From positions 62,001-126,000 of the forward strand of contig NZ_ML119081.1 of NCBI RefSeq assembly GCF_003789055.1: 64,000 bases of DNA, read 5' to 3'. A model generated the notes under the pieces. That model had not been told where the DNA came from and did not search any database. It worked only from the letters and a program-made list of their open reading frames with translations. The translations under genes and the position numbers were made by a program. Of the stretch, positions 19,155-61,443 are shown piece after piece (the first letter of the stretch is position 1; the number at the start of each line of letters is the position of its first letter). Origin of the DNA: Histidinibacterium lentulum (GTDB taxonomy: Bacteria > Pseudomonadota > Alphaproteobacteria > Rhodobacterales > Rhodobacteraceae).

Positions 19155-21011
19155 ATGAGCACCGGACGGGCGCCGCGGGCGCCGGTCACGTCGGTGTCGA
19201 CGATCTCTTCCGCGGACGGCGCGCCGCTTCTGGTGCGCGAGGTGCGTCCGGACGGCGCGCGGGCGCGCTTCGCCGCCCTGATCGGCCACGGACCGACGGT
19301 TCATTCGGGACATCTGACCGGCGCGGCCGAGGCGCTGGCATGCCGGGGAGTGGCCTGCCTTGCGGGCGATCTGCGCGGGCATGGCGGTTCGGTCACCCAG
19401 CGTCAGCCGCTGGCGCATCTCGATCCGGACACGGGCTGGCAGGCCTGGCTGGAGGACATGGCGGCGATGGCGCGGGTGGCGTTCCGGGACGTCCCGCGCG
19501 AGCGGCGGGTGCTGATCGGCGGCGCGATGTCCGGGCACCTGATGGTGGAGCTGCTGCGCCGGGACCCGTCGCTGGCCGCGCATCTGGTGATGGCCGCGCC
19601 GATCCCGCCGCAGCCGGGGCTGCGCACGATCGTGATGGCCTTCCTGCGGTTCCGCCGGATGACCCATCCGCTCGACCGCCCCGATCCGCAGATCATGCAC
19701 CATCTCTACGGGTTTCTGCGCGCCCACCTTCCCGCAGGCAGCCGGAACCACGACACGATCAGCGCCGATCCCGCGACGGTGGCGCGGGTGCTGCAGGACC
19801 CGCGCGGCTTTCCTACGCCGACGCTGGGCTACTGGATCGCCATGCTGACGGGGATGGATGCGATCTGGACCGGAACAGGCCCCGGCGAGCTGGCGCCCGA
19901 CCTGCGGGTCCTGATCCTGACCGGGCCGGAGGAGCCGCAGACGCGGGGCGGACGGCTTCTCGGTCGGCTGCAGGGCTGGTGGCGAGACCGCGGGGTGACG
20001 GATGTCGCGGTGCGGTCGATCGACGGGGTCAGGGCCAACATCCTGATCGACGCCCCGCGTCTGCCGGTCGTCCCTGCTATCGTGGACTGGCTCGACGGCG
20101 GAGCGGCGACGGTCGCGACCGCGCCGCAAGCGGACCCGCAGGTTCCCTATGACACGGCGCTGGCCCGGCTCGGCGTGACGGCGGAGGGGACGGCGAGCCT
20201 GCACGAGCTGATCGAGCTCTGCTATGCCGCGCTCGACGACGACGAGCGCTGGGTCGAGCTGATCTACCGCCTGCTTCTGACCAGCGAGGCCGACCCCGAG
20301 GGGATGGACGATCTCATGCAGACCATCCAGCCCCATTGGCAGCGTGCCTTCGAGCTGCGGGAGGACATGCGGCAGGCGGCCTCCATGGGGCGTCTCTACC
20401 ACGACCTGATCGACCGGATGGCCGTCGGCGTGGCGGTGCTCGACGCGGGCTTCGCGCTGCGCGACTGGAACACCGCCTTCGCCGAGGCAGTGGGGCGTCT
20501 CTTCGGTCGGCCAGGTGGCGCCACCAGCCTGCAGCGGGACGTCGCGCGGCTGCTGGCGACCCGGCCTCAGGGCGCACCGGAAAGCCAGAGAGCCGGGGAC
20601 GATGTCCCGATCCTGCACGAGGGCCGTCTGGTGGGGGTGCTGCTGCAACCCCCGAGCCTTTTCGGCGCGGGTCTCGGGGCGGAGCCGCCGGGTCACCTGA
20701 TGGTCCTGCGCGCGCCCGACAGCCGCAGCGCGGACCGCCAGCACCGGGGGAGCCTCCTTGCGCTCGCCTACGGCCTGACCGGTCAGGAGGCCATGGTGTC
20801 CGTGCATCTGGCGGACGGGCTCTCGACCGAGGCCATCGCCGGCGCCCTCGGCATCAGCGAGGCGACGGTCCGCAGCCACCTCAAGCAGGCCTTCGCCAAG
20901 ATGGACGTCTCGAGCCGCCCGGAACTGATCCACCGGGTGCTGTCGGGGCCGCTCGGCTGGCTGATGGGCGAGGACCGCGCGGCACCGCCGCACCGCTCGC
21001 TGCCGCACTAG
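19155..21011 (+). CDS. Alpha/beta-hydrolase-fold and LuxR-type HTH fusion regulator
   Basis: 618 residues. Residues about 20-310 look like a monoacylglycerol-lipase-type alpha/beta hydrolase: ALIGHGPTVHSGHL (oxyanion region) and LAGDLRGHGGS. The nucleophile elbow, normally GxSxG, reads GAMSG (123-127), with Met where the catalytic Ser belongs, so hydrolysis is doubtful. Residues about 330-530 are helical then PAS-like (DRMAVGVAVLDAGFALRDWN). Residues 541-596 form a LuxR/GerE HTH: LTGQEAMVSVHLADGLSTEA then LGISEATVRSHLKQAFAKM. The fusion suggests a transcription factor that senses a small molecule through a dead hydrolase. The symporter gene begins one base after its stop and may be co-transcribed. 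Confidence 0.8.
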   Translation: MSTGRAPRAPVTSVSTISSADGAPLLVREVRPDGARARFAALIGHGPTVHSGHLTGAAEALACRGVACLAGDLRGHGGSVTQRQPLAHLDPDTGWQAWLEDMAAMARVAFRDVPRERRVLIGGAMSGHLMVELLRRDPSLAAHLVMAAPIPPQPGLRTIVMAFLRFRRMTHPLDRPDPQIMHHLYGFLRAHLPAGSRNHDTISADPATVARVLQDPRGFPTPTLGYWIAMLTGMDAIWTGTGPGELAPDLRVLILTGPEEPQTRGGRLLGRLQGWWRDRGVTDVAVRSIDGVRANILIDAPRLPVVPAIVDWLDGGAATVATAPQADPQVPYDTALARLGVTAEGTASLHELIELCYAALDDDERWVELIYRLLLTSEADPEGMDDLMQTIQPHWQRAFELREDMRQAASMGRLYHDLIDRMAVGVAVLDAGFALRDWNTAFAEAVGRLFGRPGGATSLQRDVARLLATRPQGAPESQRAGDDVPILHEGRLVGVLLQPPSLFGAGLGAEPPGHLMVLRAPDSRSADRQHRGSLLALAYGLTGQEAMVSVHLADGLSTEAIAGALGISEATVRSHLKQAFAKMDVSSRPELIHRVLSGPLGWLMGEDRAAPPHRSLPH

Positions 21012-21012
21012 G

Positions 21013-22296
21013 ATGGAGCCGCTCGTCGTCCTTCTCGGGCTCGGCGCGCCGGCGGCCTATGCGCTCATGCGGGCGCGCGGGATCGGGCAGGCGGATTTTC
21101 TTGCCACCGCGCGCCGGACCTCCATGGCGCTGACCCTGGCCGGGGTGATCTGCGGCAACATCGGCATCGGCACGTTCGTTGCGCTGTTTCTCTTCACCGC
21201 CGAAAGCCCCGTCCTCGGCTACACGGTCGCCCTCAGCTACGCGGCGGGTCTGCTGCTCTGTGCCGCGCTGGCGGGGCGCATCCATGCCGCGTCGCGGGCG
21301 ACCGGGACCTATGGGCTGGTGGATTACCTCGCCGCCGCCCATGGCCTCGGGTCCTCGCTGCCGATCTGGGCACCGGTGGCGGTGGCCTTCGCGCTCCGGA
21401 GTATCGTGCAGCTGATGGCGCTGGGGCTGATCCTCGAGCTGTCTCTGGGCCTTGCCCCAGGCATCGCGCTCGCCATCGCGGGGCTGGCCGTGGGACTCTA
21501 CACCGCCATCGGTGGCTACCGCGTGGCGCTGGAGACCGACCTCGCGCAGGCGCTCATCATCCTGGCGGGCATGGCGCTTGCTGCGCTCGGGCTGTTCGCG
21601 GACACGCCGCCGGGGGTGGCGGGGCCCGCGTTCTTCGACCTCGGGCCCCGGGGCCTGCCGTTCCTGATCGCGGCGGCGCTGTTCCTGCCGTTCTCCGCGG
21701 TGCTCGCCGTCGACAACTGGCAGCGTATCGCCACGGCGACGAGCGCCGGGACCGCCCGCCGGGCCTATCTGCTCGGGGCCGCGATCTGCACACCGGTCTA
21801 TCTTCTCCTGGCCCGACTGGGGCAAGTCGCGGCAAACGGAGGGGCAAGCGGCATGGCCGAGGCGCTGGGGGCGTTCCGGGCGCTGATGCCGCCCGGCCTG
21901 CCGGTGCTTGCGGACCTCGTGGTGATGATGGCGGTGATGTCCTCCATCGACACCTTCGTGATGCCGCTGATGACGGGCCTGTCCCGCACGCGCTGGGGCA
22001 TGGGGCGCATCCGGCTGGCGGTGGCCGGTGTCTTTGCCGTGCTGACGCTTGTCGCGCTCGGGATCGGCGACGCGCTGACGGGGGTGATCGCGGCCTTCAA
22101 CACGCTCGTCGTGTTCCTGCCGGCCGTGCTGGGCGCGCTGGTGCTGGGCGACCGGGCGCCGCGGGCGGCGATGCTGTCCATGGGCCTCGGCGTCGCAGCC
22201 ACGCTTGCCCTTGGCGCGCTGGCGCTCGATCTCGCCGCGCTCGCGGGGTTCCTGCTGGCGGCGGGGCTCTACGCGGCGCTGCGCCGGCGCGCCTGA
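21013..22296 (+). CDS. Sodium:solute symporter-family membrane protein
   Basis: 427 residues with about 12-13 hydrophobic segments. The stretch LYTAIGGYRVALETDLAQAL matches the conserved SSS-family loop (typically TxxGGxxAVxxTDxxQ). The first segments carry GVICGNIGIGTFVALFLFT. Shorter than the 480-550 residues usual for PutP-type members, with a compact N-terminus. Substrate unknown. It directly follows the hydrolase-LuxR regulator, which may control it and sense the transported compound. Confidence 0.75.
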   Translation: MEPLVVLLGLGAPAAYALMRARGIGQADFLATARRTSMALTLAGVICGNIGIGTFVALFLFTAESPVLGYTVALSYAAGLLLCAALAGRIHAASRATGTYGLVDYLAAAHGLGSSLPIWAPVAVAFALRSIVQLMALGLILELSLGLAPGIALAIAGLAVGLYTAIGGYRVALETDLAQALIILAGMALAALGLFADTPPGVAGPAFFDLGPRGLPFLIAAALFLPFSAVLAVDNWQRIATATSAGTARRAYLLGAAICTPVYLLLARLGQVAANGGASGMAEALGAFRALMPPGLPVLADLVVMMAVMSSIDTFVMPLMTGLSRTRWGMGRIRLAVAGVFAVLTLVALGIGDALTGVIAAFNTLVVFLPAVLGALVLGDRAPRAAMLSMGLGVAATLALGALALDLAALAGFLLAAGLYAALRRRA

Positions 22297-22341
22297 CGAT
22301 ACGTCCTTCCGTTTTCCCGCGGCCTGCCCATTACTGCGGTC

Positions 22342-23328
22342 ATGGACATATTGGTGACAGGCACGAGCGGGTTCGTCGGCGGCGCGGTGGGGCGCCATCT
22401 GCGCGCCCGCGGGCACCTCGTGACCGGGCTCTCCCGCCGTCCGCCCCGCGCGGAGGCGGCGGACCGGGCCATCGTCCATGATCTCTCCCGGCCACTGACG
22501 GAGACCCCGCGCGTCGACGCGGTGATCCATGCCGCGGCGCTTTCGTCGCCCTGGGGGCGCCCCGCGGCCTTCGAGGCGGCCAATGTCGAGGGCACGCGCC
22601 ACGCGCTTGCGCTTGCGGCGCGGTGCGGCGCGCGGTTCGTGCTGATCTCCTCCTCCTCGGTGCTCTACGCGCCCGGCGACCAGGAGGACCTCGCGGAGGG
22701 GCCCGCGCCGGACAGCCCCCCCGTCAACGACTACGCCCGCACCAAGCGCGCGGCCGAGGCGCTGACCCGCGCCCACCCCGGGCCCTGGACCATCCTGCGC
22801 CCCCGCGCCGTCTATGGCGTCGGCGATACGGTCCTGTTCCCGCGCATCGCCCGCGCGGCCCGGCTGCGGCTCCTGCCGCGCTTCCGGAGGGAAACGCCCG
22901 CACGGGGGCATCTCGTCTCGATCGACAGCCTCGTGCGGCAGGTCGCGCGTGCGGTCGAGACAGGGGCGGAGGGCATCCTCCACCTCGTCGATCCCGCGCC
23001 GGTCGGCATCGAGGCCTTCGTCACCGAAGCGCTGGACCGCGTGGGCCTGCCCGGTCCCTCGGTCCGGGTGGGGGTGGCCGGCGCCATGCGCAGTGCGGCA
23101 GGCCTCGAGGCGCTGTCACGGCGGACGGGCTGGTGGGAGCCGCCGCTGACGCGGTTCGGTGTCGCGGTGTTCACCGAAACGAAGACCTTCGACGACAGCC
23201 GCGCCCGCGCGCTCCTCGGGCCGCCCGACATCCCGAGCGCCGTCGCCGTGGCGCGGTTCGCGCGCTGGTGGCAGGCGGGCGCCCGGCTCGACGATCCCGC
23301 GATGGGGCGGGTGGGAGAGGACCCCTGA
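22342..23328 (+). CDS. NAD(P)-dependent epimerase/dehydratase (extended SDR)
   Basis: 328 residues. Rossmann motif TGTSGFVGGAVGRHL at 6-20 (GxxGxxG), a central SSSSVLY region, and the catalytic YxxxK in DYARTKRAAEAL. C-terminal substrate domain of the 3-beta-hydroxysteroid dehydrogenase/OleD-like group. Expected to reduce a keto group or oxidise an alcohol on an acyl or sugar intermediate. First gene of the plus arm of the biosynthetic cluster; its stop overlaps the start of the glycosyltransferase. In olefin/beta-lactone pathways an SDR of this type (OleD) reduces the beta-keto product of a ketosynthase-III enzyme; a similar enzyme is present here at 28134. Confidence 0.82.
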   Translation: MDILVTGTSGFVGGAVGRHLRARGHLVTGLSRRPPRAEAADRAIVHDLSRPLTETPRVDAVIHAAALSSPWGRPAAFEAANVEGTRHALALAARCGARFVLISSSSVLYAPGDQEDLAEGPAPDSPPVNDYARTKRAAEALTRAHPGPWTILRPRAVYGVGDTVLFPRIARAARLRLLPRFRRETPARGHLVSIDSLVRQVARAVETGAEGILHLVDPAPVGIEAFVTEALDRVGLPGPSVRVGVAGAMRSAAGLEALSRRTGWWEPPLTRFGVAVFTETKTFDDSRARALLGPPDIPSAVAVARFARWWQAGARLDDPAMGRVGEDP

Positions 23329-24446
23329 CCGCCGCCGCCCTTGCCGTGCTGGGCGCGCTCTATGCCGTCCTCCAGGCGCTGCGGCTGGGGCTGGCATGGC
23401 GGCACCGGCCCGGAGAGGGCGGCGGCGCTCCCTCGGTCACCGTCCTGCAACCGATCCTGTCGGGGGACCCGGCGCTGGCGGAAACGCTCGCCGTCGGGCC
23501 GGACCAGGCGCACGGGGCGCGGTTCGTCTGGCTGGTCGATAGCGACGACGCGGAGGGCGTCGCGGTGGCGACCCGCCTCGCCAAGGGGCGGAGCGCCGTG
23601 CGGGTCGTCGAGGGGCGGCCGCCTCGGGACGGAGAGAACCCCAAGACGCTGAAGCTGGTCCGGGGCGAGGCCCATGCGACGGGCGAGGTCGTCGCCGTGC
23701 TTGACGACGACACCGTGATGCCGCCGGGCGGGCTCGAGCGGCTTGCCGCCGCGGCGAAGACGACCGGCGGGCTCGCGACGGCGCTGCCGACCTGGGGCAG
23801 GGCGCCCCGGACCGCCTCGGAGGCGCTGGTCGCGGGTTTCGTGGACGGGCAGGGCGCCTCGGCGTATCTCGCCATGGCGCGCCTTGGCCGGACCCGGACG
23901 ATCAACGGGATGGCCTATGCGGCGGATGCGCGGGCCTTGCGCCGGGCCGGGGGCTTTGCCGCCATGGGGCATGCCGTGACCGATGACTGGGCCATCGCGC
24001 GTCTTTTCGAGAGCGCCGGGCTGCCCCTTCTGCAGACCGCCGTTCCCGCCCGCGTCGCGGTCACCGTGGCGGGACCGCGTCAGGCCGTGAGGCTGCTGCG
24101 ACGCTGGACGATCTTCGCGCACAGGTATGTCGGGGCCAATCTCGACGCGGCCATGGCGTTGCTGGTGCTGCTGCCGGCCGTCCTGCCGCTGGCGGGGCTG
24201 ATCCTCGCGCTCGTCTCGGGGCCTCTCGCCGCGGGGCTCTGGCTGCTCCTCCTCGCCGGGCGGGCGGCGCTGCACCGGAGGCTGGTGCGGGGGATCGGCG
24301 GGGCGGGAACGGCCCCGCTCTGGGCCGTCGTCGCAGCGGAGCTGGCCTTGCCGCTGCTGTCGGGGCTTGCCCTCTGGCGCCCGAGCCGCATCCGCTGGCG
24401 CACGCGCCGCATGCGGCTTGACCCCGACGGGATCCGTTACGAATGA
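23325..24446 (+). CDS. GT2/GT21-type membrane glycosyltransferase
   Basis: About 373 residues. Residues 1-25 form a membrane helix (VLGALYAVLQALRLGLA). The catalytic domain has SVTVLQPIL at the first strand, ENPKTLKLV, the acidic cluster VAVLDDDTVMPPGG, NGMAYAADARALRRAGGF, VTDDWAIARL and the RRW box in RLLRRWTIF, then three C-terminal membrane helices. This is the layout of ceramide-glucosyltransferase/HpnI-type enzymes, which add sugars to lipids. No ATG is available near the N-terminus. A strong GGAGAGG stands five bases before CTG 23325, which overlaps the SDR stop as CTGA; GTG 23346 is the alternative. Confidence 0.78.
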   Translation: MTAAALAVLGALYAVLQALRLGLAWRHRPGEGGGAPSVTVLQPILSGDPALAETLAVGPDQAHGARFVWLVDSDDAEGVAVATRLAKGRSAVRVVEGRPPRDGENPKTLKLVRGEAHATGEVVAVLDDDTVMPPGGLERLAAAAKTTGGLATALPTWGRAPRTASEALVAGFVDGQGASAYLAMARLGRTRTINGMAYAADARALRRAGGFAAMGHAVTDDWAIARLFESAGLPLLQTAVPARVAVTVAGPRQAVRLLRRWTIFAHRYVGANLDAAMALLVLLPAVLPLAGLILALVSGPLAAGLWLLLLAGRAALHRRLVRGIGGAGTAPLWAVVAAELALPLLSGLALWRPSRIRWRTRRMRLDPDGIRYE

Positions 24447-24988
24447 CCGCGCCGCGGATCGCCCTTCTGACGGGACGGTCCGATCCGGCGCGGACGGGCC
24501 TTCCGCCCGTGCAGGAGGCCTTTCTCGAGGCCGTCGTCCCGCCGGGGATGATTGCGGTCGGGGACGGCTATCCCTGGACCGGGGGCGCGCCGGAGCGGCC
24601 CGTTCCCCTGCCGCTCGCCGCATTGCGCAACGCGGCGCAATGGCGGGCGGCGCGCAGCGGCGCAGCGCGGGCGGAGGTCTCGGCGCGGCTGGCCCGGCTG
24701 AAGGGCGACCCGCTTGCGATCGTGACGGGAAGCTGCGGGCTCGACCTTCTCGTTTGCGGCTGGGTGCCGGGCCTTTGCGATCTCGTGATCGCCCTTGGTC
24801 CGGTCCGGAGGCGGCCGGCCTGGGCGGGGGTGCGGATCGTCACCGTCGTGGGCCGCCGGGACGCGCTGGCGCGGGCGTTCCACCGGGAGAGGCCGGACAT
24901 CGTCGTCCCCTGCGGCCACATGAGCTACTGGGCCTGCCCGGCAACGCGCGACGCCGTCGCCCGCGTCCTCGGGGACTGGCGCCCGTGA
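24443..24988 (+). CDS. Unknown protein, tentatively alpha/beta-hydrolase-like
   Basis: 181 residues; start ATGA overlaps the glycosyltransferase stop. No family recognised with confidence. The order IVTGSCGLDLL (around 93-103), VVGRRDALA (Asp140) and VVPCGHMSYW (His159) resembles the nucleophile elbow, acid and histidine loops of a small alpha/beta hydrolase, with Cys98 in the nucleophile place. Shorter than most hydrolases. In an olefin-type pathway a hydrolase-fold protein (OleB) is expected, but this link is speculative. The tight overlap with both neighbours shows it belongs to the cluster. Confidence 0.5.
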   Translation: MTAPRIALLTGRSDPARTGLPPVQEAFLEAVVPPGMIAVGDGYPWTGGAPERPVPLPLAALRNAAQWRAARSGAARAEVSARLARLKGDPLAIVTGSCGLDLLVCGWVPGLCDLVIALGPVRRRPAWAGVRIVTVVGRRDALARAFHRERPDIVVPCGHMSYWACPATRDAVARVLGDWRP

Positions 24989-26220
24989 GGGTGCTCGTCG
25001 CGGCGCCGCCCTTTGCCGGGCATCTCGACCGGCTGGTGCCGCTGATCCGGGCAGCGCAGGACGCGGGCCACGGGGTGCGGGTGCTGACCGGGCATGCACG
25101 GCTGTCCTTACTCCAGGCCCGGGGGATCGAGGCCGTGGCGCCGCCCTCGCTGCCCGATGGTGCTCTCGAGCAAATCGCCGAGGGGTTCGGGCGCATCTCG
25201 GGCCGGCCAGGGGCCGCGCTCGCCCAGCTGCGGGCCAACTTCGACCTCCTGCCCGCCCTGACCGCGGACCTCTGCGCGGAACTCGAGGTGTGGCGGGCCG
25301 ATGTGCTGGTCGCCGACAGCGTGGCGCTGATGGCGGGGCCTGCGGCGGCGCGCACCGGCGTTCCCTGGATCACCACCGTCGCCTCGCCCCTGTCGCTCCA
25401 TACCTCGGGGGGCACACCCGCCTTCATGGGGGGCTGGAACCCGCCCCGGGGCTGGCCCGGGCGGGTGCGGGACGGTCTCGGGCGGATGGCGCAGGATGCC
25501 GCGCGCGAGGCGGTCTTTGCTCTGATGCGCGCCCGCCTGCCGCCCGAACTGGCGCGGCCCTTCAGGCCGGACGGGAGCGAGACGATCTATTCGCCGCAGG
25601 CGATCCTCGGCTTCGGGATGACCGAGCTCGAGTTTCCGCGGGACTGGCCCGCCGCCTTCGAGATGATCGGGCCCCTCGCCTCGGCGCCGAGCTTCGATCC
25701 GCCCCCCGATCTGCCCGATGCGCGGCGGGCGGTCTTCGCCACCCTCGGCACGCACCTGCATTGGGCGCGGGCGGCGTGGCGCGGGGGGCTCGAGCGGCTC
25801 GCCCGGGACAGGCCCCGCTGGCTGATCGTCGCGTCCGAGGGGCGGATGGCGGGCGGTGCGGAGGCCCGGACGGGACCGCCGAACCTGATCACCGTCCCGC
25901 GCCTGTGCTACCGGCGCGACCTGCCGCGCTTCGACGCGGTGATCCACCACGGCGGCTCGGGCATCGCCCTTTCCGCCATCGCCGCGGGCCTTCCGAGCCT
26001 TGTTGTCCCCCATGATTTCGACCAGGCCGACATGGCCGCCCGCATCGCCTGGCACGGGCTCGGCCTCAGGGCGCGCAGCCTGGCGGGCGCGGCGCGGTCC
26101 CTCGACCGGCTGATGGGGGAGGAGTGGCCCGCCTTGCCCAGGTTCGCCGAGGCGGCGGCGCGCTATCGCCCGGAGGAGCGCTTTCTCGCCGCGCTGGCAC
26201 GCGTCACGGGCTCCGCATGA
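24985..26220 (+). CDS. UDP-glycosyltransferase-like enzyme (GT1 family)
   Basis: 411 residues from GTG 24985, overlapping the previous stop as GTGA. N-terminal Rossmann start VRVLVAAPPFAGHLDRLVPL has the AxxxxGH of glycosyltransferases acting on lipophilic or natural-product acceptors. The C-terminal donor domain has VFATLGTHLHW, VPRLCYRRDLPRFDAVIHHG and GSGIALSAIAAGLPSLVVPH, matching the GT1 HHGGxGT-like and DQ-binding motif (here HDFDQ). Probably transfers a sugar onto the product built by the other enzymes. Its 3' end overlaps the convergent adenylate-forming gene by 17 bases. Confidence 0.85.
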   Translation: MRVLVAAPPFAGHLDRLVPLIRAAQDAGHGVRVLTGHARLSLLQARGIEAVAPPSLPDGALEQIAEGFGRISGRPGAALAQLRANFDLLPALTADLCAELEVWRADVLVADSVALMAGPAAARTGVPWITTVASPLSLHTSGGTPAFMGGWNPPRGWPGRVRDGLGRMAQDAAREAVFALMRARLPPELARPFRPDGSETIYSPQAILGFGMTELEFPRDWPAAFEMIGPLASAPSFDPPPDLPDARRAVFATLGTHLHWARAAWRGGLERLARDRPRWLIVASEGRMAGGAEARTGPPNLITVPRLCYRRDLPRFDAVIHHGGSGIALSAIAAGLPSLVVPHDFDQADMAARIAWHGLGLRARSLAGAARSLDRLMGEEWPALPRFAEAAARYRPEERFLAALARVTGSA

Positions 26221-27382
26221 CGCGTCTCAGCTTGGTGGTCTCGGGCGGGGCGAGGCGGGCGACCTGCAAGGTGACGGCGCGCCCCAGCAGGGTCTCGAGG
26301 GCGACGCGCGGGCCCGCGGTCTCGCTGCCCGGGGGGAGCGTCAGCACCGGGGTCTCGTCCCCGACCTGTGCCAGCCGGAAGTCGCGCGCGCCCGCGCCCA
26401 GCACCGCGTCGCGCAGGACGTCGGGCGCGATCCCGCCGATCCGGTCGGCGACACGCCCCGCCACGACCACGGCCCTCAGCGGAGAACCGCAGGGACAGGA
26501 CACGAGCCGCACGAGATCGCCGGTCCGGTAGCGCGCCATCACCTGAGCGCGCCGGGTGAAATCGGTGACGACGGGCTCGAGGGTGCCGTCGCCCGCCTCG
26601 GTAAGCTCGACATGCACGCGATCCTCGGCCAGGTGCAGCGTCCCGTGACCGCAGCTGACCGCGAAGAGCCCCTCGGTGGCCATGTAGATCTCGCCCAGCC
26701 GGGCGGCGGGAAATCCGGCCCGGATCGCCGCGCGCTCGGGCGGGTCCAGCACCTCTGCGGCGGCATAGATCCGGCGGGGGGAGAGGCGCGCGCGGCGCCC
26801 CGCCAGCCAGCCGAGGTAACGGGGCGGCGCCACGAGGACATCGGGAGCGAAGCCCTCGAGCGCGGGCAGGGTCGCGGAGAACCCTGCGCCCAGCGAGACG
26901 AAGCACAGGGGCAGGGCGCGCCCGTCGCCCGCGGCATCGTAGAGCGCCGAGCCCCGGGGCAGGGCCACCGCCACGCGGGGGCGGCGCAGCGCCTCGAGGC
27001 CCAGCGTCTTGGCGAGGATCGTGCCGAGCCAGATGAACCGTTCGGCCTCGGAGATCAGGTAGGGCATCCGGACGCCCGAGGTGGTGCCCGTGCTCAGCCC
27101 GACATGGTGACCGGGCGGCGGCGCGGCGCGGCCCTCGGCCATGGCGGTCGCTGCTTCCGCCGTCAGACCCAGGCGGTTATGCGCGGCAAAGCCCGCCATC
27201 AGGGCCGCGCGATCCATGATGGGCAGGTCCTGAAGCCCCTCCACCCCCGCGGTCTGCCTCAGCCAGCGCCGCATCCGCCGCGCCTGCCAGGCCTCGAGCC
27301 GCGCACGGTCGCTGAAGAGGGCGGCGCGCGTCAGGGTCGCGGCGCAGGCACCGAGGGCAATGGCCGCCCCGCGCAGGGTCAC
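26204..27382 (-). CDS. Adenylate-forming enzyme, F390-synthetase/PaaK-like
   Basis: 392 residues from GTG 27382, overlapping the upstream stop as GTGA. The phosphate-binding loop GLSTGTTSGVRMPYL lies at 95-109. Later motifs IYMATEGLFAVSCG (aromatic/acyl pocket and the ATEG) and YRTGDLVRL are typical of the superfamily, and VVVAGRVADRIGG matches the GRxxD hinge. Compact relatives are annotated as coenzyme F390 synthetase-related adenylate-forming proteins. Expected to activate a carboxylate as an acyl adenylate. Third gene of the minus arm, after the ketosynthase and the metallo-hydrolase. Its acceptor (CoA, ACP or internal hydroxyl) is unknown. Confidence 0.8.
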   Translation of the reverse strand: MTLRGAAIALGACAATLTRAALFSDRARLEAWQARRMRRWLRQTAGVEGLQDLPIMDRAALMAGFAAHNRLGLTAEAATAMAEGRAAPPPGHHVGLSTGTTSGVRMPYLISEAERFIWLGTILAKTLGLEALRRPRVAVALPRGSALYDAAGDGRALPLCFVSLGAGFSATLPALEGFAPDVLVAPPRYLGWLAGRRARLSPRRIYAAAEVLDPPERAAIRAGFPAARLGEIYMATEGLFAVSCGHGTLHLAEDRVHVELTEAGDGTLEPVVTDFTRRAQVMARYRTGDLVRLVSCPCGSPLRAVVVAGRVADRIGGIAPDVLRDAVLGAGARDFRLAQVGDETPVLTLPPGSETAGPRVALETLLGRAVTLQVARLAPPETTKLRRVMRSP

Positions 27383-28143
27383 GCGGTGAAGTCCGGCACG
27401 GGCGCGGGATCGTGGCACAGGACCACGCGCCCCCCCGCGGCGGCGAAGGCCCTGACCCGGGCGAGGCTCTCCATCGCGGCGCGCGCATCGGCATAGATCG
27501 CCCGCGCGGGTCCCCGCGGCGGGCGATCCTCGGCGATGGCGGGCCAGACCCATTGCACGTCGGCGGCATAAAGGACGGGCGGATCGAAGGCCGGGAACAG
27601 CAGGCCCGAATGCCCCTCGGCATGGCCCGGAAGCGGCAGCGACAGGACCGAGCCGTCCCCCAGCACATCCCGTCCCCGCCCCAGCCCGAAGGGCAGGGGC
27701 TGGTTTCCCTCCAGGTCCTCCACGGCGTCCGGCAGGAGTTCCGCCATCAGCCCGTGCCTGAGCGCGCGCCAGGGGTGGTGCCGCGCATGGGCAAGGGCGC
27801 GGGCGGGCCCATGGACGGGAACGCCGGAGAGGCCCCGGACCGCGCCGACGTGATCCGCATGGAGGTGCGACAGGATGACGGCGGCGGGCGCCCGGCCATC
27901 CAGAACCGCAAGGGGCGCGCGGCCTTCGTCGATCCGGGGCCTCAGGAGCGCGCGGTAGATCCTCAGCGCCGCGCTCTCCCGGGGCGCGCGGTCCGGCCAG
28001 CCCGCGTCGATCAGGACCGGCGCCCGGCCGGGCCGCTCCAGAACGCCGAAGCGCACCGCGAGATCGACGCGGCCGCGTCCACCGGCCAGCACCAGCCGCT
28101 CGGGCACCGGAATGCGGGCATGGACATGAAAGCTCAGCCGCAT
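27379..28143 (-). CDS. Metallo-beta-lactamase-fold hydrolase
   Basis: 254 residues, ATG 28143. The zinc-binding HxHxDH motif is at 93-98 (SHLHADHVGAV); a later PLPGHAEGHSGLLF provides the third histidine and ADVQWVW the bridging Asp region. The protein resembles quorum-quenching lactonases and glyoxalase-II-like thioesterases in layout. In a cluster with a ketosynthase and acyl-activating enzyme it may hydrolyse a thioester or lactone intermediate, or give self-protection. Overlaps the ketosynthase stop by 10 bases and the next start by GTGA. Confidence 0.85.
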   Translation of the reverse strand: MRLSFHVHARIPVPERLVLAGGRGRVDLAVRFGVLERPGRAPVLIDAGWPDRAPRESAALRIYRALLRPRIDEGRAPLAVLDGRAPAAVILSHLHADHVGAVRGLSGVPVHGPARALAHARHHPWRALRHGLMAELLPDAVEDLEGNQPLPFGLGRGRDVLGDGSVLSLPLPGHAEGHSGLLFPAFDPPVLYAADVQWVWPAIAEDRPPRGPARAIYADARAAMESLARVRAFAAAGGRVVLCHDPAPVPDFTA

Positions 28144-29120
28144 GGCGCCGCCTCGAGAATTCCCGCTCCGAAGGTGACCCCGGCGGCGGTCCCCAGCATC
28201 AGCACCCTGGCGCCGGGCGCGATGCGGCCTTCGCGCCGCGCGTGGTCCAGCGTCACGGGCAGCGAGGCCGCGACCTGGTTGCCGTGGGTGGCGGAGAGGT
28301 CCACCAGCCGGTCCTCGGGAACCTTCAGGGCGCGGACCATCAGGCGCAGGGCGGCGGGGCTGGCCTGATGCGGAAGGACGAGGTCGATCTCCTCCATGGT
28401 CAGGCCCGCCTGCTCCAGCGTCCGGGAAACGAAGGCGCCGAACCGGCGGCGGGTCAGGGCAAAGAGCGCAGGACCGTCCATGGCGAAGTGCAGCGCGTGG
28501 GGCGGGGCCAAAGCCCCGAGGCGGGTGCCGCCGGCGGGCAGCCCGGCGGCCTCGTAACCCGAGGGGTGGGTGCTGAGCGCGATCGGTCCGAGCCTCAGCC
28601 CGCCCGCGCCGGAGCCCACCACGGCGGCCCCCGCGCCGTCCCCGAAGAGCCCCGCCGTCGCCGGGTCGCGCCAGTCGAGGTTGTCGCTCACCTTCTCGGA
28701 GGCCACGACGAGGACGTGGCTCCACCGGCCCGTCTCCACCATCGCCGCCGCGTGCTGAAGCGCGGCGAGGAAACCCAGGCAGGTCGCGCCGACGTCGTAG
28801 GCGGCGACCGCCCCGTCGCCCAGTCCCAGGGCGAGCTGCACCAGGGGCGCCGTCGCGGGGATCGTCTGATAGGGCACGGCGGCGGCGTGCAGGATCGCGT
28901 CGAGCCTCCCCGCCTCCAGCCCCGCGTCGGCCAGCGCCGCCCGCCCCGCCTCGGCCGCAAGCTCCACCTGGTCCCGGCCGATGGCGCGGGGCCGCAGGTG
29001 GACGCCGGTCGCCTCCGCGACATGCCCGGGAGGGAGGTCATGGTAGCGGTCGAGCGTGGCGCTGGCGACCGGGGCGAGGCTTGCGGCGCGGCCCGTACCG
29101 AGGATCGATGCTGTGGCCAT
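28134..29120 (-). CDS. Ketosynthase III (FabH/OleA-like thiolase superfamily)
   Basis: 328 residues from ATG 29120 (MATASILGTGRAASLAPVAS). The triad is visible: Cys114 in VGATCLGFLAAL, His251 in VLPHQASPAAL, Asn281 in HGNQVAASLPV. Predicted to form a carbon-carbon bond by Claisen condensation of acyl thioesters, or to transfer an acyl group. The segment TIPATAPLVQLALGLGDG preceding the Cys strand resembles the OleA loop, but the residue before PATA is Ile, where from memory OleA has a catalytic Glu. First gene of the minus arm; the three genes overlap and form one transcript. The frame is open far upstream on the strand opposite malQ, which I regard as shadow. Confidence 0.88.
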   Translation of the reverse strand: MATASILGTGRAASLAPVASATLDRYHDLPPGHVAEATGVHLRPRAIGRDQVELAAEAGRAALADAGLEAGRLDAILHAAAVPYQTIPATAPLVQLALGLGDGAVAAYDVGATCLGFLAALQHAAAMVETGRWSHVLVVASEKVSDNLDWRDPATAGLFGDGAGAAVVGSGAGGLRLGPIALSTHPSGYEAAGLPAGGTRLGALAPPHALHFAMDGPALFALTRRRFGAFVSRTLEQAGLTMEEIDLVLPHQASPAALRLMVRALKVPEDRLVDLSATHGNQVAASLPVTLDHARREGRIAPGARVLMLGTAAGVTFGAGILEAAPCG

Positions 29121-60975: not shown

Positions 60976-61052
60976 GCGGTTGTAGCTCAGTTGGTTAGAG
61001 TACCGGCCTGTCACGCCGGGGGTCGCGGGTTCGAGCCCCGTCAACCGCGCCA
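60976..61052 (+). tRNA. tRNA-Asp (GTC), copy 1
   Basis: 77 bases. Acceptor GCGGTTG/CAACCGC, D arm TAGCTCAGTTGGTTAGAG, anticodon arm CCGGC-CTGTCAC-GCCGG with anticodon GTC, T arm GCGGGTTCGAGCCCCGT, encoded CCA. Identical in sequence to the copy at 61367. Confidence 0.97.
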
Positions 61053-61366: not shown

Positions 61367-61443
61367 GCGGTTGTAGCTCAGTTGGTTAGAGTACCGGCCT
61401 GTCACGCCGGGGGTCGCGGGTTCGAGCCCCGTCAACCGCGCCA
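61367..61443 (+). tRNA. tRNA-Asp (GTC), copy 2
   Basis: 77 bases, identical to 60976-61052 including the flanking GC at the 5' side and ACTTCCCCCCT directly after the 3' CCA's first bases, which points to a duplication. Confidence 0.97.

Follow-up and report, generated by a model that had tools for sequence, protein, structure and literature searches.

A small ketosynthase III cluster with exchangeable arms in Histidinibacterium lentulum, a candidate pathway for a glycosylated lipid or lactone

Introduction

Do seven overlapping genes of Histidinibacterium lentulum form one biosynthetic unit, and what might they make? The genes lie within a stretch of 64,000 nucleotides (contig NZ_ML119081.1 of assembly GCF_003789055.1, positions 62,001 to 126,000 of the forward strand), referred to here as the window. 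One arm, the glyco arm, encodes a short-chain dehydrogenase (SDR), a GT2/GT21-type glycosyltransferase (GT2), a small hydrolase-like protein (HYD), and a second glycosyltransferase of the UGT type (UGT). The other, the acyl arm, encodes a ketosynthase III (KS3), a hydrolase with a metallo-beta-lactamase fold (MBL), and an adenylate-forming ligase (LIG).

An earlier note, made from the sequence alone, described the seven genes as two converging, overlapping arms and likened four of them to the OleABCD enzymes of olefin and beta-lactone synthesis. It proposed a glycosylated lipid-like product and knew of no characterised pathway with the same set. In this study, we examined where the seven genes recur, how the arms came together, and which enzyme families and catalytic residues they carry.

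Results

The seven open reading frames (ORFs) of the window were intact and ran as described, SDR, GT2, HYD and UGT on the plus strand towards KS3, MBL and LIG on the minus strand. The contigs of GTDB genomes were scanned with a UGT alignment, and the 25 other loci obtained were sorted by gene content and layout. All seven genes occurred together in 11 of these 25 loci, which is the co-occurrence that the earlier note had named as a check. Ten of them were convergent like the window, and one was colinear. The loci were picked via UGT, so the independent evidence lies in the joint recurrence of the remaining six genes. The ten convergent loci belong to Alphaproteobacteria, Actinomycetota, and Bacteroidota. 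KS3 and MBL adjoined the glyco arm in 20 of the 25 loci, and three loci truncated by contig ends (L049, L054, and L057) were consistent with the layout of the window. When the ORFs of all 26 loci, the window included, were clustered, no eighth family was found in more than six loci among the 30 largest groups listed. The groups listed there beyond the seven families and their alternate frames had six loci each, all from Lysobacteraceae except for one group of five Lysobacteraceae loci and L053. These results confirm that the seven genes are a real biosynthetic unit, recurring with the same layout across several bacterial phyla.

The evolutionary distances of the genes were also compared in ten complete loci, including the window. 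The distances correlated for all 21 gene pairs (r 0.75-0.91, p 0.001), and this correlation arises partly via shared descent. The comparison was made without L053, in which the HYD frame runs on too long, and without L058, in which HYD was detected by blastp only and missed by tblastn. Partial sequences were used for the SDR of L043, where the match in a metagenome-assembled genome (MAG) fell in two frames and the longer piece was taken, and for the interrupted GT2 of L050.

The convergent seven-gene loci are those of Cypionkella (L043), an alphaproteobacterium (L044), Nitrospirillum (L050), Rhodospirillales (L051), Hymenobacter (L052 and L058), Cellulomonas (L053), Bradyrhizobium (L059), Actinotalea (L060), and Micrococcales (L061). 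An additional reading frame interrupts GT2 in the Nitrospirillum locus (L050, 7836-9059), and about 7 kb lie between LIG and MBL in Hymenobacter negativus (L058, 12931-19293). The colinear locus, L056, is apparently on the same contig as L039 of genome G351 in the family of the window, with the order SDR, GT2, HYD, UGT, KS3, MBL, LIG. Six Lysobacteraceae loci (L062-L067) carried KS3, MBL, SDR, GT2, HYD, and UGT colinearly without LIG. L046 held a KS3 fragment with HYD and UGT. Three contigs of Acidobacteriota MAGs had a glyco arm without a neighbouring acyl arm; the arm was complete in L048, whereas L045 and L047 had lost part of it at the start of the contig. When these three genomes were searched as a whole with the LIG alignment, each gave a strong LIG on another contig, where KS3-MBL-LIG stood together without an SDR match alongside, complementary to the SDR-GT2-HYD-UGT operon.

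A LIG relative was found in 10 of 198 genomes of the family of the window, its own included. Two weak HYD matches (G177 and G369) had no surrounding cluster and were dropped. Among 72,556 plasmid records, UGT had no match and GT2 had one weak match; thus, none of these plasmids was found to carry the seven-gene form. No LIG relative was found on viral contigs. Among the open-access papers listed, none was found to describe the cluster or its core operon, in line with what the earlier note had supposed, and the cluster is apparently uncharacterised. A paper on lipocones (PMC12419801) was unrelated to the cluster.

KS3, MBL, and LIG are part of a wider four-gene module, KS-SDR-MBL-LIG, which has its own SDR. 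The module shares the KS3, MBL, and LIG families of the window in the order KS-(SDR)-MBL-LIG, but its SDR belongs to a separate group and it has no glyco arm. It was seen in Rhizobiales, Rhodobacterales, Paraburkholderia, and Escherichia coli, with other tailoring genes. LIG relatives occurred in 34 plasmid records, and six of the seven examined contained the operon; in the seventh, from Pseudomonas Leaf58, the module genes were scattered over 10 kb. Five further genomes of the window's family (L021-L025) and two of its genus (L037 and L038) also carried the module. The same was true for all six further proteobacterial loci (L111-L116), which were drawn from the strongest of 53 TIGR02304 matches, some of the strongest being examined. 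TIGR02304 (E ≤ 0.001) matched 53 of 349 proteobacterial genomes, five above the cut-off, and also six of 14 control genomes, one above it, so weak matches do not demonstrate the module. The LIG matches L026-L029 had no KS3, SDR, or MBL found alongside; they were rejected as modules and used as an outgroup.

The genes that follow the module vary and include those for a GNAT-like protein, a Rieske oxygenase, an ATP-grasp protein, and DUF3419. Lipid-type genes adjoining the relatives of the acyl arm encode PAP2, sterol-desaturase family, acyl-coenzyme A (CoA) desaturase, and DUF3419 proteins. In E. coli NRG 857C (L030; also L019), the operon reads KS-SDR-MBL-LIG-PAP2-sterol desaturase family-acyl-CoA desaturase. 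Matches to this operon occurred in 672 of 5426 complete E. coli genomes; in 671, the match spanned at least 80% of the operon. Fatty acid hydroxylase and desaturase domains adjoin the module in L111.

Two further arrangements were observed beside the module. A DUF3419 gene lies directly 3' of LIG in the window's family (L022, 7413-8510) and on a Rhizobium plasmid (L016, 10250-11323); presumably it has a BtaA-like betaine-lipid role, which would point to a head group of a lipid. Rieske oxygenase genes adjoin the modules of L014, L015, L021, and L115, some with GNAT-like or ATP-grasp genes, and may be further arms.

The history of the two arms was examined with trees. In a quick tree of 34 rows, the SDRs of the seven-gene loci formed one group apart from the SDRs of the core module (Shimodaira-Hasegawa-like approximate likelihood ratio test 100), and the window SDR fell in this glyco-arm group and is not of the core type. 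A concatenated tree of KS3, MBL, and LIG was built from 27 loci and 1066 columns under LG+G4, with L017 left out. In this tree, the window and L043 grouped with eight core-module loci (100/100), as sister to those eight (92/90). L056 grouped with three other loci (98/98). A third group (94/95) comprised the eleven seven-gene loci that remained. A single clade of all seven-gene loci was rejected (approximately unbiased test, p 1.8e-68), in a test that followed quick trees already suggesting this outcome and with 12 of the 27 rows having an unusual letter composition. A KS3 tree with two paralogs from the window's own genome had very long paralog branches and was not relied on. These results indicate that the arms were joined more than once, and both assembly and loss are compatible with the trees.

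The features of the locus are listed in Table 1. Profile searches with hidden Markov models agreed with the gene identities given in the earlier note, except for LIG, which had no Pfam match and stayed below the TIGR02304 cut-off, and HYD, which matched no family.

Table 1. Positions of the seven genes and the overlap of their arms in the window, and of the related operon in E. coli
Feature	Position	Strand	Description and basis
SDR (first gene of the glyco arm)	22342..23328	+	extended short-chain dehydrogenase, epimerase-fold reductase; PF01370, NCBIfam OleD, SDR tree
GT2	23325..24446	+	GT2/GT21 glycosyltransferase, HpnI/ceramide glucosyltransferase-like; PF13506
HYD	24443..24988	+	compact alpha/beta hydrolase; predicted structure, no Pfam/NCBIfam family
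UGT	24985..26220	+	GTG start; GT1-type (EryCIII/CalG1/YjiC-like) glycosyltransferase; PF06722
Tail-to-tail overlap of the arms (UGT/LIG stops)	26204..26220	.	17 nt
LIG	26204..27382	-	GTG start; PaaK/F390-synthetase-related adenylate-forming enzyme; TIGR02304, PaaK profile match
MBL	27379..28143	-	metallo-beta-lactamase-fold hydrolase nearest acyl-homoserine lactone (AHL) lactonases; PF00753
KS3	28134..29120	-	FabH-type ketosynthase III; Cys114-His251-Asn281
E. coli NRG 857C operon	NC_017634.1 1305029-1311910		core genes NRG857_RS06425-06440; between narI and tyrT/purU

The start of GT2 is uncertain, being either a CTG within the overlap or a GTG at 23346. The overlaps in the plus-strand arm are 4 (given the CTG start), 4, and 4 nt, and those in the minus-strand arm are 4 and 10 nt. 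The ends of UGT and LIG overlap likewise in nine of the 13 other convergent loci measured. The LIG query sequences began at 27385, 3 bases beyond the GTG start. The cluster has a guanine and cytosine content of 75.5%, compared to 69.4% for the whole window, and the 6.8-kb stretches of the window with the highest content begin at 22201-22601. The flanking genes of the window (SSF, LuxR, and MalQ) were matched in none of the 25 other UGT loci. Among four other genomes of the genus, MalQ was matched in one (43% identity) and the LuxR protein in none (E 1e-40). The LuxR protein (window 19155-21011) combines a C-terminal LuxR helix-turn-helix with an alpha/beta-hydrolase domain. Two neighbouring tRNA-Asp(gtc) genes lie at 60976-61052 and 61367-61443.

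Discussion

The observed basis for a pathway consists of the unit itself, its conservation, its modular history, the enzyme families, and the catalytic residues, and from these we infer the substrates, the order of the steps, and the product. We judge the chances about even that the seven genes form a mobile two-arm unit in which the acyl arm and the SDR jointly build a lipid aglycone that is then glycosylated. KS3 would link an acyl chain bound to Cys114 with another activated acyl unit through a C-C bond, and would most likely join two chains, like its relatives CorB and MxnB. LIG may adenylate a carboxylate, either supplying an activated chain or closing or coupling the product, and SDR would reduce the keto group to an alcohol. 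MBL may hydrolyse a lactone or (thio)ester that arises as an intermediate or off-product. GT2 would transfer the first sugar onto the alcohol at the membrane, UGT would add the second, and HYD may move or remove an acyl group. The product would be a glycosylated long-chain hydroxy-lipid or lactone, and the earlier guess at a glycosylated lipid-like product stands. The presence of lipid-type genes next to the core in other genomes speaks for a lipid as the product.

Several observations weigh against this reading. The seven-gene form is rare; a convincing HYD was found in two of 394 genomes of the family and UGT in one of 385 genomes of the class, the window's own genome being one of the two and the sole one, respectively. 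No LIG lies between UGT and MBL in the cluster of L055, considering the locus only, and six of six Lysobacteraceae genomes of unstated completeness, searched as a whole with the LIG alignment, gave no LIG. As LIG is lacking in these seven clusters, it is either not indispensable or replaceable. The single acyl-arm locus of Acidobacteriota that was scanned (L108) is followed by genes for an S41 peptidase and a sigma factor and has no lipid genes nearby; these neighbours are uninformative about a lipid. No carrier protein is encoded among the seven genes. The window KS3 alone scored 159.7 bits with FabH (4ryb, its best match) vs 145.3 bits with CorB, and a Foldseek search with KS3 put CorB first, but FabH was interleaved with CorB and MxnB. 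Because of this single-sequence preference for FabH and the mixed Foldseek result, the joining of two chains is a putative activity.

The KS3 family profile speaks for the joining of two chains, as it scored 305 bits with MxnB and 300 bits with CorB vs 262 bits with the best FabH. Cys114 was kept in 22 of 22 rows of the seven-gene set and 14 of 14 core rows. His251 was present in 35 of 36 rows (one gap), and Asn281 in 34 of 36 (one gap and one Thr). Position 87, which corresponds to the Glu site of OleA, held Ile or Met in 21 and Ile or Leu in 14 non-gap rows, and Glu in 0 of 35. Its spacing to Cys114 is 27, the same as that from V94 to C121 in MxnB. The hallmark of OleA is Glu117 followed by Pro, about 26 residues ahead of the nucleophilic Cys, and OleA hydrolyses p-nitrophenyl hexanoate whereas FabH does not (PMC7064751). 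MxnB and CorB have Val at this position and fall within the FabH clade (PMC4578411), and MxnB joins two beta-ketoacyl chains (PMC5724707). KS3 thus resembles the chain-joining ketosynthases of the CorB/MxnB type in its Cys-His-Asn and in its small hydrophobic residue at the Glu site of OleA. MxnB and CorB, however, are embedded in the multimodular polyketide synthase/non-ribosomal peptide synthetase pathways of myxopyronin and corallopyronin, with carrier proteins, whereas KS3 belongs to a small free-standing cluster. Since FabH shares Cys-His-Asn and the lack of Glu, these features do not separate the CorB/MxnB type from FabH. KS3 may instead be a decarboxylating enzyme of the FabH type that extends an acyl-CoA once with malonyl-acyl carrier protein. 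SDR would then give a 3-hydroxyacyl chain, MBL would release it, LIG would re-activate it, and the product would be a glycosylated 3-hydroxy fatty acid or ester. This is possible but rather unlikely. The best single match of the window KS3 agrees with it, as do the NCBIfam PRK07204 and FabH models, which matched 22 of 22 KS3 members scanned, Cys-His-Asn being kept. The family profile prefers MxnB and CorB, however, and a pathway to 3-hydroxyacyl chains alone would duplicate fatty-acid synthesis.

The MBL family profile matched an AHL lactonase best (E 6e-31), and HxHxDH, H174, and D195 were kept in all 35 rows. An MBL of the lactonase type suggests that the intermediate is a lactone or a labile ester. 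LIG matched TIGR02304 with 154 bits, below the curated cut-off of 251.9, and had no Pfam match at E ≤ 0.01, hence no AMP-binding PF00501. Its profile matched PaaK (E 5e-21), its P-loop was conserved, and the terminal Lys385 was present in 29 of 29 rows. Known members of the PaaK family activate aryl acids. PqsA, PqsD, and PqsE likewise bring together an acid-activating ligase, a ketosynthase III, and an MBL hydrolase, and PqsD was among the matches of KS3 in both sequence and Foldseek searches. By this logic, LIG would make an aryl or unusual acyl-CoA starter, KS3 would condense it, MBL would act as a thioesterase, and the aryl or alkyl ketide would be reduced and glycosylated. We consider such an order improbable. 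The best matches of the ligase, ketosynthase, and MBL are from other subgroups, and none of the 29 MBL profile matches listed was named PqsE, the best being lactonases. The SDR and the glycosyltransferases are extra here, no aryl-acid-making gene recurs widely among the 30 largest groups listed, and the seven clusters without LIG keep the rest of the genes.

The likeness to OleABCD holds only as an analogy. In both systems, an enzyme with the ketosynthase III fold, an OleD-like SDR, an adenylate-forming enzyme, and a hydrolase are clustered, and two chains may be joined. SDR matched PF01370 with 88.6 bits and has Y131 and K135, and its best NCBIfam model is OleD. OleC carries PF00501, and the nucleophile of OleB is Asp. 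A true Ole or beta-lactone pathway, with OleA, OleD, OleC, and a replaced OleB followed by glycosylation, would account for these four parallels at the superfamily level. The nearest idea in print is a cluster of OleA, a glycosyltransferase, OleC, P450, and OleD, proposed to give a glycosylated beta-lactone (PMC7064751). We nevertheless regard Ole membership as very improbable, and it was rejected on four features. The Glu of OleA is absent from KS3, LIG is PaaK-like and lacks the domain of OleC, a metallo-lactonase-type MBL stands in place of the alpha/beta-hydrolase OleB, a beta-lactone decarboxylase, and SDR scored 88.7 bits with the OleD model, far below its cut-off of 580. No OleA was named among the 50 Foldseek matches listed. 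OleABCD also lacks the two glycosyltransferases and the small serine hydrolase present here, and HYD, itself an alpha/beta hydrolase, has Ser at the place of the OleB nucleophile.

HYD had no match in Pfam or NCBIfam. An AlphaFold model from 20 sequences had a predicted local distance difference test score of 92.3, and Foldseek matched it to small alpha/beta hydrolases, with Bacillus lipase A first (E 3e-5, template modelling score ~0.5), and to dienelactone hydrolase; the earlier description as hydrolase-like was borne out by this model. Ser97, Asp140, and His159 were present in 24 of 24 rows and are the putative catalytic triad, as judged from motif and fold.

The profile of UGT matched CalG1, YjiC, and others in PDB. 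GT2 shares the GT2/GT21 family and the DDD, DD, and RW motifs (23 of 24 rows, one gap) with HpnI and ceramide glucosyltransferase, and its profile matched the latter with E 8e-10. With these as its nearest relatives, GT2 could be taken to show that the unit acts on a membrane lipid already present in the cell, of hopanoid or ceramide-like type, and makes no aglycone of its own. We think this hardly probable. The HpnI model matched 17 of 17 GT2 members scanned, but the window GT2 scored 86.5 bits, 223 bits below the cut-off of 310, and its gene neighbours differ from those of HpnI and ceramide glucosyltransferase. In addition, a system for glycosylation alone would need neither KS3 nor MBL, yet both adjoin the glyco arm in 20 of 25 loci and are encoded at another site in the three Acidobacteriota genomes searched.

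In this study, we rate the cluster as a small ketosynthase III lipid or lactone pathway with exchangeable arms. It is conceivable, although we hold this view only tentatively and find it doubtful, that the cluster represents an unrecognised, horizontally spread class of lipid pathways, in which a small chain-joining ketosynthase core of KS3, MBL, LIG, and an SDR swaps head-group arms. Across at least four phyla, the core with the glyco arm would then yield a new glycolipid; with other arms it would yield further lipids, one of them in roughly every eighth complete E. coli genome. The cluster delimits a compact biosynthetic family that spans several phyla and pairs a conserved acyl core with differing tailoring arms. 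Since 672 of the 5426 complete E. coli genomes have a match to the core, its chemistry is also relevant to a well-studied species. A new glycolipid as the product would add a lipid class, and the modularity predicts the products of related clusters from their arms.

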